Virus record (IMG/VR): IMGVR_UViG_3300035099_000117
Span: 1 to 53,236 of that record
DNA from: a virus
DNA length: 53,236 nucleotides
Reading direction: 5' to 3' (one strand)
Below, one piece after another: positions 29,316 through 36,943 of this stretch (positions are counted from its first letter, which is position 1; every line of letters begins with the position of its first letter). The position numbers and the translations under genes are program-made. The notes below the pieces were generated by a model. That model had not been told where the DNA came from. It did not search any database and saw nothing but the letters and a program-made list of their open reading frames with translations.

Positions 29316-30041
29316 TCACGCCTTGAACTTCAACGACGAAACGTCGTCCCGATGCTCCGGCGGATACCACATCGACATCTTCCAGACTCTGTCTTGCGAT
29401 TGAAGTTTTCTGTCCTCGACGGCAACGCCGAGACGCGCGGCGAATTCCTCGAAAGCCTCGGTTGTCCGGAAACTTACGACGACCTGCACGGCTGCCTTCT
29501 CGCCCGGTTCGTATTCTGGCATCCCCACCCACTCGGCGGCGGCGTCGAAGTCTGTCACTTCGTGCCTTGACCTCGTCGCCATGAGCAGGTTCGCCACCAT
29601 CATTTCGTCGTAGCCGGTCCCGAGCAATCCTCGCTCGTCTGTGTCTTTGATCCACTTGAGCAGATTCGACAACTTCCGGTCGTCTTGTTCGGCCAAGTGG
29701 TCGATTTCGTTGTCGGCCACGAGCAGCTTGACGGCAGCCGCCTCTTCAGGAGCCAAATCGAGTCGCATCACCGGAATGCTTTCCAAGCCCGCCTTGCGCG
29801 CCGCCGCCACGACTCCGTGACCTGCCAGGATGGTCTTGTCCCTGGCGCACACCACGTTCCGATACACGCCGAAGCGTTGCACGCTCTCAGTCAAGTGTTC
29901 GAGTTGGTCTTCTGGATGAGAACGATAATTCATCGGATGCGGTTTGAGTTCGGAAAGCGCGATGATTTCCACCTCGAATCGCGGGCGGCCTTCCTTGGTT
30001 GCGGATTTCGTCGGCTTTTTTACTTTCGCCGGGCTCCCCAT
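29316..30041 (-). CDS. ParB/Srx-fold protein
   Basis: 241 aa from ATG 30041, preceded by ATGGAGGACGC. Residues 21-85 form the ParB N-terminal fold: EIIALSELKPHPMNYRSHPEDQLEHLTESVQRFG, then ILAGHGVVAAARKAG (the GHG replacing the common GHR). The C-terminal 100 residues (VVVSFRTTEAFEEFAARLGV) resemble a small alpha/beta module. In phages this domain is often an adapter or nuclease in modification clusters rather than a partition protein. Located between UDG-like and TAGT-like genes. Confidence 0.8.
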   Translation of the reverse strand: MGSPAKVKKPTKSATKEGRPRFEVEIIALSELKPHPMNYRSHPEDQLEHLTESVQRFGVYRNVVCARDKTILAGHGVVAAARKAGLESIPVMRLDLAPEEAAAVKLLVADNEIDHLAEQDDRKLSNLLKWIKDTDERGLLGTGYDEMMVANLLMATRSRHEVTDFDAAAEWVGMPEYEPGEKAAVQVVVSFRTTEAFEEFAARLGVAVEDRKLQSQDRVWKMSMWYPPEHRDDVSSLKFKA

Positions 30042-30487
30042 GCGTCCTCCATGAATCGGCGCGCCGCTGCTTTGTTCCGAGCCCCGTTCCACCATCTGTT
30101 GATCCCGCTCGGGTGCGGCACGACGGCGACGTCGAATCCGATGTTCACCCATTTCAGATATCCGACGGTCAAGCCAAATGCCTTGGCCACGCTTCGGCCC
30201 AGCAAGATGACTCGTCTGCCGCCGAATCGCAGCGCGAGACGACGCGCATTTGTCTTCGCCTGCCGCATCGGGAAACGGTCGCCCTTGCCGCTTTTGCCTG
30301 GCCAGCGACGGAGAACATTGCATCTCTCCGTCAACGCCATGTACTCTTCTCTGCCCATCCCGCACGCGCCCGCCAGCCTGCGCACGACCAGATCACCCTC
30401 CAACGGCTTCTCCGGGTCTCCCCTCCTCGATGGTGCCTGGCCGACGAGCACGAGCTTCTCCTTCCCAGTTTTCGTCTTGTTTACCAT
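30020..30487 (-). CDS. Uracil-DNA glycosylase superfamily protein
   Basis: 155 aa. I use ATG 30487 (MVNKTKTGKEKLVLVGQAPS) because GGA lies 6 nt upstream. An in-frame ATG at 30493 is adjacent to it. Motif I-like GQAPS at 16-20 and motif V-like HPSGINRWWN at 125-134 place it in the UDG superfamily, but the usual catalytic Asp/Asn of motif I is not evident and no four-Cys FeS set is seen. Such divergent members occur in DNA hypermodification clusters. It overlaps the end of the radical SAM gene. Confidence 0.75.
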   Translation of the reverse strand: MVNKTKTGKEKLVLVGQAPSRRGDPEKPLEGDLVVRRLAGACGMGREEYMALTERCNVLRRWPGKSGKGDRFPMRQAKTNARRLALRFGGRRVILLGRSVAKAFGLTVGYLKWVNIGFDVAVVPHPSGINRWWNGARNKAAARRFMEDAWGARRK

Positions 30488-31571
30488 GCGCATTCCATAT
30501 GGGCAACAGCGTCGGCGCGCGATGCGAACCTTTCTCGTCTTTCGGCAGTTGTTGCCAGCCAGCGCCGTCCCAGAATTGATTGACTTGCTCGTCCGTCCAG
30601 TGTTTGTAGTCGCATCGCGCAAACGTGATGCAGCAGCGTGAACAATACGATGTATCGGCGCGATTCTTGTCGCGCAGACGGCGACGAATGATCTGGAGTT
30701 CTTTCCCATACCAGAAGCGGAGAAATCCCGGCACGCCGTCATGCACGGAGCCGAATTTGCCGGAAGTTTCTCCCGTGTTGTCTTGGCAGCACAGCAGATA
30801 ATTTCCCCTTGAATCGACATTCGCATATATGAACGGCTGATTGCATCTGCGTTTCAACGGTTCGGTCACGGGCTTCAAGCCGAACCTCTTCGCTGCTTGC
30901 CAATCTAGGTGGTTGTACCACGTGCCCAAGAGTCCTGCTCGCAGGCGCGATTTCGGCCAGAACGCGGGTTGTTCTTGCAACACGATGAGCTTGACGTGGG
31001 GACCGTGATACGTCCATGGCGACGGCGCTCCCGATGGCCTGTTGTAATACTCGTACCACGGGAGTTTGGATTCCTTCGCCATCTCGATGAACCGCTTCCT
31101 CGGGCCGTACATGTCCGTGTACACGATGTTCGCGCCGCTGGCGATCAAGCCGGCATACGCGATTTTGCCTTGCATCAGCATGGTGCCGTTCGTCGTGATC
31201 TGTATCTGCGAATCGGGACTCAGCTCGCGCGCGATCCGCAAGTAGTCGTACAGGCGAGGATGCAGCGTCGGTTCGCCTCCGAGGCAGATGTCTGCGCGGC
31301 AGGTGGGCGTCACTTTGCGCATTATGCTCCAAGTCTCGCGCCACGTCTGCTCGTCCATGAAATGATAAACGCCTTTCGGATCCAAGCGGCACGAGCAGTG
31401 GCCGCAGCTCAGATTGCATCCGTGCACGAGCTCCACCACCCAGTTGTACGGGCTGGTCTTGCCGAGCGGCTTTCGCTTCTTCAATGCCCTGAGTCTCGGC
31501 CAAGGCCACGTCTGGCTGTCCGGCGCGATCTTGTCTTGGCAAAGGACTTGGTTGTCGCGTTCGCCATTCAT
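30393..31571 (-). CDS. Radical SAM protein with SPASM-like C-terminal cysteines
   Basis: 392 aa, RBS GAAGGAGG. Canonical CxxxCxxC at C52, C56, C59 (HGCNLSCGHCSC), GGEPTLHP at 98-105 for SAM binding. Further cysteines near 245 (RRCNQPF), 262 (LLCCQDNTG) and 310 (SYCSRCC) resemble a SPASM or twitch extension holding an extra cluster. Likely acts by hydrogen abstraction on a nucleotide, DNA base or peptide. The cluster with UDG, ParB and TAGT genes favours DNA base hypermodification. The substrate is unknown. Overlaps the HNH stop by ATGA. Confidence 0.85.
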   Translation of the reverse strand: MNGERDNQVLCQDKIAPDSQTWPWPRLRALKKRKPLGKTSPYNWVVELVHGCNLSCGHCSCRLDPKGVYHFMDEQTWRETWSIMRKVTPTCRADICLGGEPTLHPRLYDYLRIARELSPDSQIQITTNGTMLMQGKIAYAGLIASGANIVYTDMYGPRKRFIEMAKESKLPWYEYYNRPSGAPSPWTYHGPHVKLIVLQEQPAFWPKSRLRAGLLGTWYNHLDWQAAKRFGLKPVTEPLKRRCNQPFIYANVDSRGNYLLCCQDNTGETSGKFGSVHDGVPGFLRFWYGKELQIIRRRLRDKNRADTSYCSRCCITFARCDYKHWTDEQVNQFWDGAGWQQLPKDEKGSHRAPTLLPIWNAHGKQDENWEGEARARRPGTIEEGRPGEAVGG

Positions 31572-32029
31572 GGCTTCGCCTCCTTCTTTTCGGCTCGCTT
31601 TGCGAAACCGAGCGCTCTCAACATCTTGCCACCAGCCCGCAGCCGACGCAACACGTCTTGCTTCGCCGCTGGGTCCATGGCGTCCAGCGTCTCCAATAGC
31701 CGCATGAATTCGTCGCGCGTGAGCTTCCCCTTGACTTCGTTTCCCCGCCGCGACACGATGCGCAGATTCGCAAACCAGAAAGTTCCGCCGCGCGAGACCG
31801 GCACATCATGGTCCACGGAGAAGTTCCTGACCGTGATCAGTTCACCTGTGTAGGGGCACCGCTTGCCCAGTTTCAGCCTGATGTCGTCACGCAGCTGCTG
31901 CAAACTATAATCCAGTTCGCGGCCAGACTGCGCTGCCAATTCTCGCTGATGACGATAGATGTTCGCACTGCGGCTCATCAGTATCCGCTGCCGCCAATGC
32001 TCAAGCGTCTCTCCGGGCTTCCTTTTCAC
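31568..32029 (-). CDS. HNH endonuclease next to the repeat array
   Basis: 153 aa from GTG 32029 (KRKPGETLEHWRQRILM...). GGGGGT sits 6 nt before it. The frame is open upstream through array unit A, but no RBS supports those starts. HNH core: SVDHDVPVSRGG with H74, then N88 (FANLRIV) and N97 (RRGNEVKGKL). CPYTGE at 58-63 supplies one zinc-type Cys. The DH-x-x-P-x-SRGG pattern resembles McrA/Cas9-type HNH. Immediately follows the three-unit part of the array, so it could act with the IS110/Nop-like protein or be an independent homing nuclease. Confidence 0.82.
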   Translation of the reverse strand: MKRKPGETLEHWRQRILMSRSANIYRHQRELAAQSGRELDYSLQQLRDDIRLKLGKRCPYTGELITVRNFSVDHDVPVSRGGTFWFANLRIVSRRGNEVKGKLTRDEFMRLLETLDAMDPAAKQDVLRRLRAGGKMLRALGFAKRAEKKEAKP

Positions 32030-32058
32030 AATTGACCCCCATAGCATCGCATGAATAC

Positions 32059-32239
32059 TCGGGAGCGGCAGGGCTTTTTCGGTTTTCACCCCAGAGATGG
32101 CCGCTCCCGATTTCTACAAGAGCGCAGGCAGCAGAAACCTGCTGGTATTCAACTTGAAAGTGGCCGCCTGCGCCCCCTCCTCGAATGAGATGGTCGGCAC
32201 CTGGAGGGTGGTTTTCAAGTGCCCAATGGCCGACCATGC
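32059..32239. repeat. Structured dual-spacer repeat array, part 1 (3 units)
   Basis: Three hairpin units with loop cores GG(T/A)TTTCA or variant at 32081, 32144 and 32210 on the plus strand. Each has CA exactly 11-12 nt before the core, TGG starting 10 nt after it, and so two 9-nt variable segments around a 9-nt conserved loop. Closing stems: unit A 32059-32069 with 32100-32110, 11 perfect bp. Unit B 32122-32132 with 32163-32173, 11 bp with one mismatch. Unit C 32190-32198 with 32229-32237, 9 perfect bp. The stems differ between units. Same architecture as the 8-unit block, separated by a 160-aa gene. Confidence 0.85.
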
Positions 32240-32246
32240 TCGCACT

Positions 32247-32729
32247 TTAGCGTGCCGCTTTCCTGGCTTCCTGATAGGCTGCTAGAATCTCCCGCCGAAG
32301 TTCACGCCATTCCATCCCCAGCAGATTCAGCCGCCGCGAATCCGCCGTGACCCGCACCTTCAGCCGCTCCAGGATGAATTCCTTCGCCTCGGCGTCGCAG
32401 GAATCGACGAATCCGAATCTGCCGTCATCGTCGATGACGCGTATCGTCGCCAGCCTTATGGGCTTGCCGTCCTTGCCGCGATGGACGTGCATGCAGTAGC
32501 TATAAAGGAAGCGCCGATAGACCTCGTAGACTCCCGCATCCCAAATCTGCTCGTCCGTGTAGAGCGCGCGGATACGCCCGCCGTTGTGCCGCTCATCCCA
32601 GTCCCGGAGCGATTCGACGCTCGGCTCGACTTCGTTCTTCTTACACCACTCGCACCAGGCCAGATAATACACCTCGCCTTCTGAGATTTTCTTCTGCTTC
32701 TTTTCCTCGATTGCTAACGAGTTAGCCAT
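32247..32729 (-). CDS. Unknown protein splitting the repeat array
   Basis: 160 aa, RBS AGGAGGAGAAG. Soluble, charged; contains WCEWCKKNEVEPSVESLRDWDERH (Cys pair at 26 and 29) and a helical C-terminal third (LERLKVRVTADSRRLNLLGMEWRELRREILAAYQEARK). No nuclease motif recognised. It lies between the two blocks of repeat units, either an accessory gene of that locus or a later insertion. Stop is 8 nt from the stem of unit C. Confidence 0.7.
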   Translation of the reverse strand: MANSLAIEEKKQKKISEGEVYYLAWCEWCKKNEVEPSVESLRDWDERHNGGRIRALYTDEQIWDAGVYEVYRRFLYSYCMHVHRGKDGKPIRLATIRVIDDDGRFGFVDSCDAEAKEFILERLKVRVTADSRRLNLLGMEWRELRREILAAYQEARKAAR

Positions 32730-32752
32730 CTTCTCCTCCTAATTTGGAATTC

Positions 32753-33257
32753 GCAGGCGGCTCGCAACCCTTTCGTGGATTTCATATCACCCTTGGCAAG
32801 CCGCCTGCGCTTGCGAAGACGCCAGCCGGCCTTTGGATTTCACAAAATTGCTGGGCGTCTTCGCATTCACCTTTCGGGGTGGCCCACAGTCTTTATGTGG
32901 ATTCCACCTGAGAATTGGTAAGCCACCCCCTCGACGCTGGCTTCAGCACGGTCCGTCTGGTTTTCAGGCGCGAGGTGGCTGAAGCCTCCGCTTTCCACCT
33001 TCTGGCGCGACGCAGCAATTTCGGGTTGGTTTTCATCGTTACCGTAGCCGCAATCGCGCCATCCATGCCATGCACCGGCATAGGCTCGATGGTTTTCAGA
33101 CCCGTATTGGCCGTACGCATAGCTTACTCTCGCCTACGAGGGAGACGGCACTCCCACGATGGATTACAACATTGGTGTGGCCGCCTCCCCTGAAGGCATC
33201 GTTCCGAGGCCGACATCGAATCGCTGGTTTTCAGATACTGCGTGGCCGGCATCGAAT
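32753..33257. repeat. Structured dual-spacer repeat array, part 2 (8 units), TIGR-like
   Basis: Eight tandem units at spacings of 58-70 nt. Core (plus strand) at 32777, 32835, 32899, 32959, 33028, 33091, 33161, 33226, consensus GG(T/A)TTTCA. In all eight, CA lies at -12/-11 and G at +12 after the core, with T at -1, and TG at +10/+11 in seven of eight (TA in the unit at 33028). Between these fixed points sit two 9-nt segments that differ in every unit. Outer arms are unique to each unit but mutually complementary (for example 32813-32823 with 32854-32864, 11 bp; 32939-32947 with 32978-32986, 9 bp). Geometry recalls TIGR arrays with two 9-nt spacers. Transcribed strand unknown. Confidence 0.85.
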
Positions 33258-34258
33258 CTTTTCCCATTACCCGCAACCCAGATTCGCTTCAAAATTTCTT
33301 TCATCATCTTCCGCCGCGCCCGCGCGCCGCAATGTCCCTGCTTCGTCTTGCAATTCGGGCATTTCGCATCGTGCGCCGCGAATTCCTTGGCATATTCCGC
33401 CTCGTAGAACGCTCGCCAGGGATTCGCCCGGTTCCTGATTATCGCCGTGCCTACCAAGTAAACCGCCGTGCGCATCGCCGGCGACCAATGCGACGGCACG
33501 CCCCGCATCCGCTTTGGCGCTTTCCCATTCTCCACCGATTGGCCGCAGAATCGCCAGAATGCCGCCACGCTCGGGAACCTCTCGAAGCCTCCAGAGAAGG
33601 CCACGAACGCCGCCGCTGAAATCCACTCCTGGACATGCAGGATCCTCCGCACCATCACGCACTCCGGAATCTTCGCCGCCAGCTTCCCGATATAGGTGTC
33701 AAGCTGCGTGCCCTCTTCTGAGACCACCGACGTGCGAATCTCGCTCAGTTTCTCTAGCGCTTGCTTGAATAGCGGTTCGGCCTTGATCGAGTCCTCATCG
33801 GCCAAACCGATGTTCCGGGCTTCTTGCTTCACCGCCCGCACCGCGTCTCCGTAGAAGCGAACGACGGCACCACGAAGCGAGAGAGCGTGCCGCAGCTGAG
33901 CGATATCCGGTCGGGGCTGGAATTGCCGGAAGATTACATTCGGCAATTTCGCCCATGTCGCAACAATCTCTTCCGGCGGAAGATTCTTGGCGATTCCCGT
34001 TTGATGCCAATGAGTATAAAGCAGCTTCACGCCTCGCTCCGCCAATCCGAACAAGAAGCTGTCCGTGGCGCGCACCGCCGTCAGACGCACAATGCCTCCT
34101 GTTTTCAGTGATCTAACAAAGTCGTTCAGCTTTGCTCCGGTCAGGCGCTCAACGCCCTCACCGTTCGAGACATAAGCCGTAGGTATCCGTCTGCCATCGG
34201 TCTTCTCGTAGCAGACATGTAGAGCAATGATTTTTTCCTGGTTGGATTTCATCTGCAT
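33164..34258 (-). CDS. IS110/Nop-like protein, candidate Tas-type RNA-guided protein
   Basis: 364 aa from ATG 34258 after AAGGAG. The N-terminal half resembles the IS110 DEDD region in layout (GGIVRLTAVRATDSFLFGLAERGVKLLYTH, then a long helix PRPDIAQLRHALSLRGAVV) but the acidic tetrad is not clear, so nuclease activity is doubtful. Residues 230-290 (FWRFCGQSVENGKAPKRMRGVPSHWSPAMRTAVYLVGTAIIRN) resemble the IS110 Transposase_20 / Nop RNA-binding region. C300, C303, C310 form a Cys knuckle. The stop TAA lies inside the loop of array unit 7. Adjacent to the dual-spacer array and an HNH gene, it fits a Tas-like RNA-binding protein. Confidence 0.7.
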   Translation of the reverse strand: MQMKSNQEKIIALHVCYEKTDGRRIPTAYVSNGEGVERLTGAKLNDFVRSLKTGGIVRLTAVRATDSFLFGLAERGVKLLYTHWHQTGIAKNLPPEEIVATWAKLPNVIFRQFQPRPDIAQLRHALSLRGAVVRFYGDAVRAVKQEARNIGLADEDSIKAEPLFKQALEKLSEIRTSVVSEEGTQLDTYIGKLAAKIPECVMVRRILHVQEWISAAAFVAFSGGFERFPSVAAFWRFCGQSVENGKAPKRMRGVPSHWSPAMRTAVYLVGTAIIRNRANPWRAFYEAEYAKEFAAHDAKCPNCKTKQGHCGARARRKMMKEILKRIWVAGNGKRFDAGHAVSENQRFDVGLGTMPSGEAATPML

Positions 34259-34360: not shown

Positions 34361-34591
34361 TCACCTTTCGCGCCCGATGCTGATCAACTTCGCCTGCTTC
34401 TTTTCCCACCGATGCTGCTCAATCCTACGCCAGCCTTCCGCGCAGATCGGCCCCAGATAGCGATCGAGCTTGTCCCACGGCACCCCGATGAGCAGCACGG
34501 CATATATCCAGCCCTCCCGACCGACGCCGGCTAACAGCGCGACGGTGAGCCCCATGAGAAACGCGGCGAAAGTTCGGCTGTCTCGGATCAT
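34361..34591 (-). CDS. Small membrane protein
   Basis: 76 aa from ATG 34591 (MIRDSRTFAAFLMGLTVALLAG), after GAAGGAGAAGCG and overlapping the HNH stop. Two hydrophobic segments (residues 8-23 and 29-38 region) then a basic amphipathic tail (WRRIEQHRWEKKQAK). Holin-like topology is possible, but its place among early genes argues for another role. Function unknown. Confidence 0.65.
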   Translation of the reverse strand: MIRDSRTFAAFLMGLTVALLAGVGREGWIYAVLLIGVPWDKLDRYLGPICAEGWRRIEQHRWEKKQAKLISIGRER

Positions 34592-35040
34592 CGCTTCTCC
34601 TTCACGCTCCATTTGGGCTCAGGCCCAGTTTTTCGATGGCACTCGGCACACAGAGTCACGAGATTCCGCACCTTCCTGCCGTCTATCGTGACCCAGATGC
34701 GGTCATCTCTCCGTCCCCCGCTCATGCCTCTCCCATGCACGTGGTGAATCTCAGCTTCGTTCACCAGGTCTTTTCCTGGCGGCGTCAGGAATTTTCCGCA
34801 ACTCTCGCAGCATCCGCCATCAAGCAAAAAGACATCCACCTTCCGTTCCCGCCATGCCGCGCCGCTGAGCACTTCTCGGCCATCACGATAGATGATCCGC
34901 AGGCGCTTCTTGACTCGTTTGAGCTTTGGCGGCGGGGAATCACAATCAATCGTTTCGCAAAGCTGAAGGCGACAAACCCAAGCACGCTTTGACGGTAGCC
35001 AGCGAAGCGCGCGATTGTGAACCGGGCATCGCGGTTTCAT
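34588..35040 (-). CDS. HNH endonuclease
   Basis: 150 aa, coupled to the upstream gene by ATGA. HNH/zinc signature: C78 and C81 (CCESCG), then H99-H100 (EIHHVHGRG), N126 and C131-x-x-C134-H135 (NLVTLCAECHRK). Additional Cys at 5, 23, 28 and 33 may bind a second zinc. Typical of phage HNH proteins that may act at cos, in homing or in DNA processing. No target is evident here. Not in the terminase cluster, so packaging-linked nicking is less likely. Confidence 0.85.
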   Translation of the reverse strand: MKPRCPVHNRALRWLPSKRAWVCRLQLCETIDCDSPPPKLKRVKKRLRIIYRDGREVLSGAAWRERKVDVFLLDGGCCESCGKFLTPPGKDLVNEAEIHHVHGRGMSGGRRDDRIWVTIDGRKVRNLVTLCAECHRKTGPEPKWSVKEKR

Positions 35041-35998: not shown

Positions 35999-36943
35999 TC
36001 ACAGTAGTTTCCTAAAGTACAAGACCCAGACAAATGGATTTAAGCCCCAGCCGAACCCCCGCTTTTCGTTGATGGAATCCCAGAAGTGGCGAAAAGCGGC
36101 AGGGGCGCTTCCCTCCGGACCCAGATTGCACCCGTCCTTGTTGAAGCCCTCCGCATAAGCGTCCTGTTCGCCGATTTCCTGTACTCGCTCGACGCGGATG
36201 CCAGTGATTTCAAGCCTTCGGTGTCCCCCTACGGATGGGAACCACGATTCCTTGAGCCATCGCTTGCTGTTCACTATTCTTGAGACCTGAGATTGACTGA
36301 TTGAGAACTGGTCGGCGATATCCCTTTGGTAGATGTCCTGCTCCCAGTAGAGGCTGCGAATCTCATCTACCTGGGCGCGTGTCAGCCCAGCGCTACCGTT
36401 GTCCTCGCCGCATACCTCAGCTGAACGTCCACGTTTGACCTTGTCTCGGATGTTGTCATCGTTTGTTCCGAGATACAAATGACCGGGATTAACGCACCAC
36501 GGTAGGTCGCAGGTATGGAGCACATGCTGTCCCTTAGGAATACTGCCCCCATGAAGTAGCCATGATGCACGGTGGGCGGCAATCTCCATCCCGTCCCAAC
36601 GAATGGTGCCGTATCCTTTGCGATTCGTTTTGCCAAACCATTCCCAGCAGGATTCGAATTTGTAAACGCGGCTCCAAAATCGCTCCTCCTTGGGGATGCT
36701 CTTAGTGAAGGATGCTCCTTGGATTATCCAAAGGCGGTCGCCGGGCTGACCGTAGGGGCATTTGATGAAAACCCGATCACGCACGCCCGTCGTGCTAACC
36801 TGAACCGCTTTGAACTCGGCGGTCAACCGATAGTCCCAACCAAGGCGAGGTTGTGGCTTGATGACCCGCCGCGTCTGCGTCTTGCGGCCTTCCAGGATCG
36901 CCCGTACCATCGAACCGCTGAAGAGGATTGGCACTTCTTTCAT
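35999..36943 (-). CDS. ASCH-type phage protein with in-frame HNH endonuclease insertion
   Basis: 314 aa, RBS GAGGAGC. Residues 1-72 (MKEVPILFSGSMVRAILEGRKTQTRR ... CPYGQPGDRLW) and 231-314 (KESWFPSVGG ... FRHFWDSINEKRGFGWGLNPFVWV) together make the familiar phage ASCH-like protein. Residues about 80-230 are a complete HNH_3-type unit (CWEWFGKTNRKGYGTI at 99-113; H143, N152, H155 in VLHTCDLPWCVNPGHLYLGT; then an HTH, YQRDIADQFSISQSQVSRIV). The insertion keeps frame at both ends. No intein splice residues (terminal Asn, Cys/Ser/Thr) are seen. Confidence 0.85.
   Translation of the reverse strand: MKEVPILFSGSMVRAILEGRKTQTRRVIKPQPRLGWDYRLTAEFKAVQVSTTGVRDRVFIKCPYGQPGDRLWIIQGASFTKSIPKEERFWSRVYKFESCWEWFGKTNRKGYGTIRWDGMEIAAHRASWLLHGGSIPKGQHVLHTCDLPWCVNPGHLYLGTNDDNIRDKVKRGRSAEVCGEDNGSAGLTRAQVDEIRSLYWEQDIYQRDIADQFSISQSQVSRIVNSKRWLKESWFPSVGGHRRLEITGIRVERVQEIGEQDAYAEGFNKDGCNLGPEGSAPAAFRHFWDSINEKRGFGWGLNPFVWVLYFRKLL

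Follow-up and report, generated by a model that had tools for sequence, protein, structure and literature searches.

The stretch of DNA analysed here (the window; 53,236 nucleotides (nt), the whole of IMG/VR virus record IMGVR_UViG_3300035099_000117) carries portal, large terminase, capsid and endolysin genes and therefore comes from a tailed phage. On its minus strand we observe a TIGR-Tas locus of the stem-loop type, a known kind of system, in which a 364-amino-acid (aa) effector gene, tas, is accompanied by 11 RNA guide units. TIGR-Tas systems were described only recently; much like CRISPR, they direct a protein to DNA by means of small guide RNAs made of two parts. The assignment is based on sequence and fold matches of Tas to TasR and TasH, on a match to the NCBIfam family NF052498, on the presence of box C and box D motifs and on the retention of the 9-nt spacer length in the closest relative of the phage, IMGVR_UViG_3300032069_000147 (L009). 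Our preferred reading, which we consider likely as a whole, is a phage-borne stem-loop system with a degenerate-RuvC Tas that would bind and bend DNA as a roadblock rather than cut it.

All guide units lie between 32,056 and 33,256 on the strand that also encodes tas. Read on this strand, each unit follows the layout stem-CCA-N9-TG(A)AAACCA-N9-TG-stem', with TGAAAACCA or TGAAATCCA as the commonest 9-base loops. A sequence-only reading of this region had proposed eleven units with two N9 segments placed around a 9-nt core, and the proposal holds: nine units fit the strict pattern and the other two (cores at 32069 and 32132) have one core base changed, compared to 0.005 strict matches per window in shuffled sequence. 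The letters of the pattern were given correctly, but on the plus strand. Matches are confined to the strand parallel to tas, and the functional strand is the minus strand, co-directional with the gene. The spacers are exactly 9 nt long on both sides of the 9-nt loop in 11 of 11 units. CCA and UG are found at the edge and at the loop throughout, except that units 4 and 11 show single-base variants. According to Faure et al. 2025 (PMC12045711), box C is CCA, box D is UG and the TasR loop reads UG-(A-rich)-CCA. The same paper describes a second type of TIGR array, which has variable palindromes in place of the edge repeats and can have a loop of fixed length and sequence.

This second type is what we find. 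Each unit is flanked by its own palindromic arms, a feature that the sequence-only reading had missed, and the arm sequence differs from unit to unit. Arms pair at 7.5 of 8 positions, compared to 5.6 +/- 0.3 when they are shuffled between units, and the folding z-scores range from -1.0 to -4.9, with 10 of the 11 units at -2 or below. A constant edge repeat between units, the mark of the dual-repeat type, is absent. Because the arms are unit-specific palindromes, the array is of the stem-loop and not of the dual-repeat type; the dual 9-nt spacers of the earlier TIGR-Tas-like assignment stand, and its array type has to be corrected. As had also been stated, the repeats have no CRISPR identity. 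Identical direct repeats, spacers of ~30 nt and Cas genes are lacking, and the fixed parts are the short UG-NNNN-CCA loop and the boxes. TRF reports no tandem array at 32-33 kb, an Rfam search gives no match, and no T-tract terminator was found within the array.

A 160-aa gene splits the array into units 1-8 and units 9-11. In minus-strand order, the first group starts with unit 1 (33200-33256; core 33214-33245; spacers CGCAGTATC and GCGATTCGA), which lies inside the tas open reading frame (ORF), followed by unit 2 (33134-33192; core 33149-33180; CACCAATGT and TCGTGGGAG), unit 3 (33060-33122; core 33079-33110; ATACGGGTC and TCGAGCCTA), which has the weakest fold with a z-score of -1.0, and unit 4 (32992-33066; core 33016-33047; CGGTAACGA and ACCCGAAAT), in which box C is CTA. 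It continues with unit 5 (32936-32988; core 32947-32978; CCTCGCGCC and GACGGACCG), unit 6 (32876-32936; core 32887-32918; ATTCTCAGG and CATAAAGAC), unit 7 (32814-32866; core 32823-32854; GCAATTTTG and AAGGCCGGC) and unit 8 (32748-32812; core 32765-32796; AGGGTGATA and CGAAAGGGT). The second group consists of unit 9 (32188-32240; core 32198-32229; TTGGGCACT and CCCTCCAGG), unit 10 (32118-32176; core 32132-32163; CTTTCAAGT and GCAGGTTTC) and unit 11 (32056-32112; core 32069-32100; TCTCTGGGG and AAAAAGCCC).

The tas gene (33164-34258, minus strand) starts with an ATG at 34258. A GGAG motif precedes this ATG and a copy with 87% aa identity is present in L009, so that we regard the ORF as real. The protein had been described before as Nop/IS110-like, and database comparison confirms this and narrows it to Tas. 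In phmmer searches of the PDB, the single sequence matches TasR (9mty) with an E-value of 4.3e-16 and TasH with 0.022. A profile of 29 viral Tas proteins led by the window protein reaches 4.7e-65 for TasR, 1.6e-42 for TasH and 3.5e-5 for IS621. With the Tas model as Foldseek query, the top 12 matches are TasR, TasH and IS621, and these are the sole matches below an E-value of 0.001. NF052498 (TIGR_Tas_endo) matches with 87.8 bits (E 9e-25; curated cut-off 100 bits). The Nop/Transposase_20-like RNA-binding domain at residues ~198-336 is confident in the AlphaFold model and follows a coiled coil at residues ~117-195. An HNH domain fused to Tas, as in TasH, is not found: the neighbouring HNH protein is encoded by a separate ORF and the N-terminus of Tas models as RNase-H-like.

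Residues ~10-110 are predicted to form a truncated RuvC/RNase-H-like domain. Modelled alone, the N-terminal ~110 residues show the strand and helix order beta-beta-beta-alpha-beta-alpha-beta, as in RNase-H. The best-supported fold match of this model is the RuvC domain of TasR (prob 1.00, E 0.004); cores of Argonaute PIWI and of integrases are listed as well. Strand beta-1 reads IALHVCYEKT and is identical in L009. In this moderate-confidence model it lacks the catalytic Asp of active TasR, which has D11 at this place. Given a truncated fold without the beta-1 aspartate, the N-terminus is probably a degenerate RuvC-like fold and Tas probably nuclease-dead, a conclusion that we hold with moderate confidence.

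Comparison with L009 reveals how the guides change. Its array contains 11 orthologous hairpins in unchanged order and, as the sequence-only reading had suggested checking, the N9 lengths are kept. Between the two phages, loops are 98%, arms 85-95% and four-fold sites of tas 79% identical, whereas the spacers are 23% identical over 10 units (unit 7 excluded), the level of unrelated sequence. Unit 7 (7391-7450 in L009) is the sole unit with its spacers kept, at 16 of 18 positions. Changes in the stems largely preserve pairing: two pairs changed in a compensatory manner, with unit 6 showing a G-C to C-G exchange, four others still pair after a change on one side (G-U-type) and one pair is lost. 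Because the spacers are at chance identity while loops, stems and tas are conserved, the guides have been replaced in place. Judged from this alignment, guides are exchanged while their hairpins persist; the spacers do not diverge at the pace of the genome, and new guides do not come in as additional units. A spacer identity of 23%, compared to 79% at four-fold sites and 98% in loops, fits guides and not structural or coding sequence.

The overlap of guides with the effector gene is a second feature that had escaped the sequence-only reading. Unit 1 corresponds in frame to tas codons 334-354, and the stop codon TAA of tas lies within the loop of unit 2, TGTAATCCA. In L009 the frame stays open across unit 1 despite different spacers. 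The segment encoded by unit 1 corresponds to the disordered tail of the AlphaFold model (residues 335-364). The overlap is far more marked in actinophage relatives: over the tas loci scanned, the tas ORF contains 103 units, placed in an N-terminal extension or in a Nop-domain loop. In-frame hairpins are found in L076 (3067-4000; 8 of 8 units), L082 (3083-3995; 9 of 10), L022 (3272-3650), L031 (3275-3995), L072, L074, L017 (Gordonia phage BENtherdunthat) and others. Box D of these 103 units falls on codon phases 3, 2 and 1 in 67, 36 and 0 cases, respectively; related loci are not independent, and these counts carry no formal p-value. That phase 1 never occurs suggests a constraint on the frame, such as translation of the units would impose. 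Over all tas loci scanned, 200 units share the strand of tas and 7 have the opposite orientation. In the main text of the founding paper (PMC12045711), arrays are described only outside tas, either upstream or downstream of it. We see about even chances that the tas mRNA of the window system and of related actinophages also serves as guide precursor, part of the guide hairpins being contained in the effector coding sequence, and that guides are exchanged fast within preserved hairpins, without a recognised adaptation gene. If true, this way of storing and renewing guides would be new to CRISPR and, as far as the main text of the founding paper goes, to TIGR-Tas.

Relatives are present in cultured phages. 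The Tas family occurs in 86 phage records, mostly of mycobacteriophages, including Mycobacterium phage Rich and Gordonia phage Morrissey, where the proteins are annotated as transposase or hypothetical. Tas of Euphoria and of Morrissey score 232 and 207 bits against NF052498. Nine Fromanvirus loci (L013, L018, L019, L036-L041; phages Euphoria, EnzoK, HarryOW, Ohno789, Kanely, Tripl3t, BPBiebs31, Pinto and Thor) carry ~5 unannotated hairpins ~330 bp upstream of a Nop-only Tas of ~235 aa. Their tas genes are 95-99% identical and their spacers average 34-36% identity at the three positions measured; some whole units are common to several of these phages. No tas is annotated at the corresponding position of Bxb1, which belongs to the same genus. 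A plasmid search returned no Tas relative, and genome contigs gave two matches only, both to distant actinobacterial Tas.

By analogy with characterized systems, we propose the following mechanism. Transcription of the array would follow the minus strand, either together with tas or downstream of it, and cuts in the linkers would release single hairpins in which two 9-nt spacers lie between box C (CCA) and box D (UG). One protomer of a Tas dimer may sit on box C/D of the closed stem and the other on that of the UGAAAACCA loop, by analogy with the solved TasR complex. Spacers A and B would each pair with a different strand of a DNA target of ~18 bp. Because no intact RuvC is present in Tas, binding and bending of the target would be expected rather than cutting, and the bound complex could act as a roadblock when a competing element replicates or is transcribed. 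RNA-guided DNA binding against such elements is the role that we consider most likely.

Several observations weigh against this picture. The NF052498 score stays just under the curated cut-off, Pfam Transposase_20 is sub-threshold for Tas (17.9 versus 21.3 bits) and Pfam offers no other match. The N-terminal model was built from two sequences with a pLDDT (predicted local distance difference test) of 72 and its fold matches are no better than E 3e-3, so the evidence for a dead RuvC is only moderate. A single close relative was found, so that in-place replacement in the window lineage rests on one phage pair, backed by the mycobacteriophage set. Target searches, with a target defined as spacer A, 0-2 nt and the reverse complement of spacer B, were likewise unsupportive. 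With mismatches allowed, no target stood clearly above shuffled-pair controls in the genomes of the window phage, L009, Bxb1 and Euphoria. Unit 1 gave one 16/18 match in the L009 genome, with an estimated expectation of ~0.08 for that scan and ~0.3 for all scans. Exact IMG/VR scans for three targets, one window unit among them, gave 6, 3 and 4 matches, by our estimate not above chance. When 15 exact gap-free targets were searched for in 50,697 phage records by N-padded blastn, none had a match, whereas an 18-mer used as positive control was detected.

The same machinery could act on fixed phage or host loci as an RNA-guided repressor or recombination aid instead of on competitors. A Tas that looks nuclease-dead would suit such a regulator, and unit 7 retains 16 of 18 spacer positions between phages in which all other spacers are replaced. 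However, complete turnover of 10 of 11 guides is unlike what guides for fixed housekeeping targets would show, and no unit has a target clearly above the shuffled-pair controls in the window or the L009 genome. We therefore regard a regulatory role as unlikely.

A further possibility concerns the HNH nuclease gene downstream of the array (31568-32032, minus strand; ORF open from 32089; 154 aa when read from the start that L009 also has). A nuclease-dead Tas might recruit this protein for cleavage in trans, as a split version of the fused HNH-Tas protein TasH (PMC12045711). The gene is adjacent, co-directional and kept beside the array in L009 with 79-86% aa identity. On the other hand, L009 is the only other tas locus fetched that has a relative of it, the protein resembles endonuclease VII or generic HNH proteins, and it has no TasH match in the PDB. 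Two more HNH endonuclease genes, at 34588-35040 and 35999-36943, bring their number in the 6 kb around tas to three, which makes the adjacency weak evidence. A split TasH thus appears quite improbable to us. The HNH gene is present as the sequence-only reading had stated; it encodes a separate protein, shared with the closest phage only, and beyond adjacency in these two phages nothing marks it as a member of the system.

That Tas is instead a remnant of an IS110-family transposase beside unrelated structural repeats (terminators, RNase sites or sites of DNA-binding proteins) is highly improbable: a weak Transposase_20 match, a PHROG match that carries the name transposase and the occurrence of hairpins in many settings speak for it, but Tas is much closer to TasR and TasH than to IS621 or ISCro4 in sequence and fold, no DEDD catalytic domain is evident, the array has no T-tract terminator, and exact 9-nt hypervariable segments within conserved boxes in both phages are unlike terminators or operator sites.

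Other neighbours are linked to the system by position. The 160-aa ORF between the sub-arrays (32247-32729, minus strand) belongs to no known family, is 88% identical in L009 and is absent from the other tas loci fetched; we note it as an association only. ParB-domain genes lie a few kb downstream of tas in the window (29316-30365) and in L009 (9015-9872). ParB-like genes are reported to share operons with tasA (PMC12045711). We rejected a corresponding link here, as the two ParB genes are only 32% identical over ~100 aa and neither adjoins tas. A radical SAM domain protein (30393-31571; PHROG match, E 7.5e-7) is encoded downstream of the HNH gene.

Three questions are left open by the founding TIGR-Tas paper (PMC12045711): the origin of spacers, the targets and the role of nuclease-less Tas proteins. 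In-place guide replacement and guides that overlap the effector reading frame go beyond its main text. Position-by-position replacement with stems, boxes and flanking genes fixed is seen in the window pair and in cultured mycobacteriophages. Since the mycobacteriophages that host such arrays infect the genetically tractable Mycobacterium smegmatis, guide turnover, targets and function are directly testable in the laboratory. The overlap with the tas frame introduces a new constraint on array evolution and processing.

Among known systems, the TIGR-TasA stem-loop array of a Peromyscus leucopus gut contig (PMC12045711) resembles the window array in its unit-specific palindromic arms, its Nop-domain effector and a pair of short spacers set between the C and D boxes. 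Its sub-arrays are separated by a ~450-nt stretch, those of the window by a gene of ~500 nt. In contrast to that array, the window has constant 9-nt UG-NNNN-CCA loops, spacers of exactly 9 nt, an effector with an additional degenerate RuvC-like domain and one unit inside tas. The inactive-RuvC TasR clade of Candidate Phyla Radiation (CPR) bacteria (PMC12045711) shares the RuvC-like N-terminus without catalytic residues and the stem-loop array; the window locus differs in residing in a tailed phage and in having no evident large insertion in the Nop domain. TaTasR (PDB 9mty) is similar in its RuvC-like domain, coiled coil, Nop domain and UG-A-rich-CCA loop, but has an active RuvC (D11) and the constant edge repeats of a dual-repeat array. 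The loci of Fromanvirus (Euphoria, BPBiebs31, Pinto) and Gordonia phages (Morrissey, Spooky, BENtherdunthat) share the Tas family, hypervariable spacers and stem-loop units, located there upstream of or inside tas, whereas their Tas is a Nop-only TasA without RuvC-like domain and their box D is mostly CG, not UG. With the RNA-guided transposases IS110/IS621 the window Tas has the Transposase_20/Nop-like RNA-binding domain in common; it differs in lacking an evident DEDD active site and in being served by an array of many guides in place of one bridge RNA. We conclude that the window matches the second, stem-loop type of TIGR system feature by feature, and not the dual-repeat type, TasH, active TasR or IS110.
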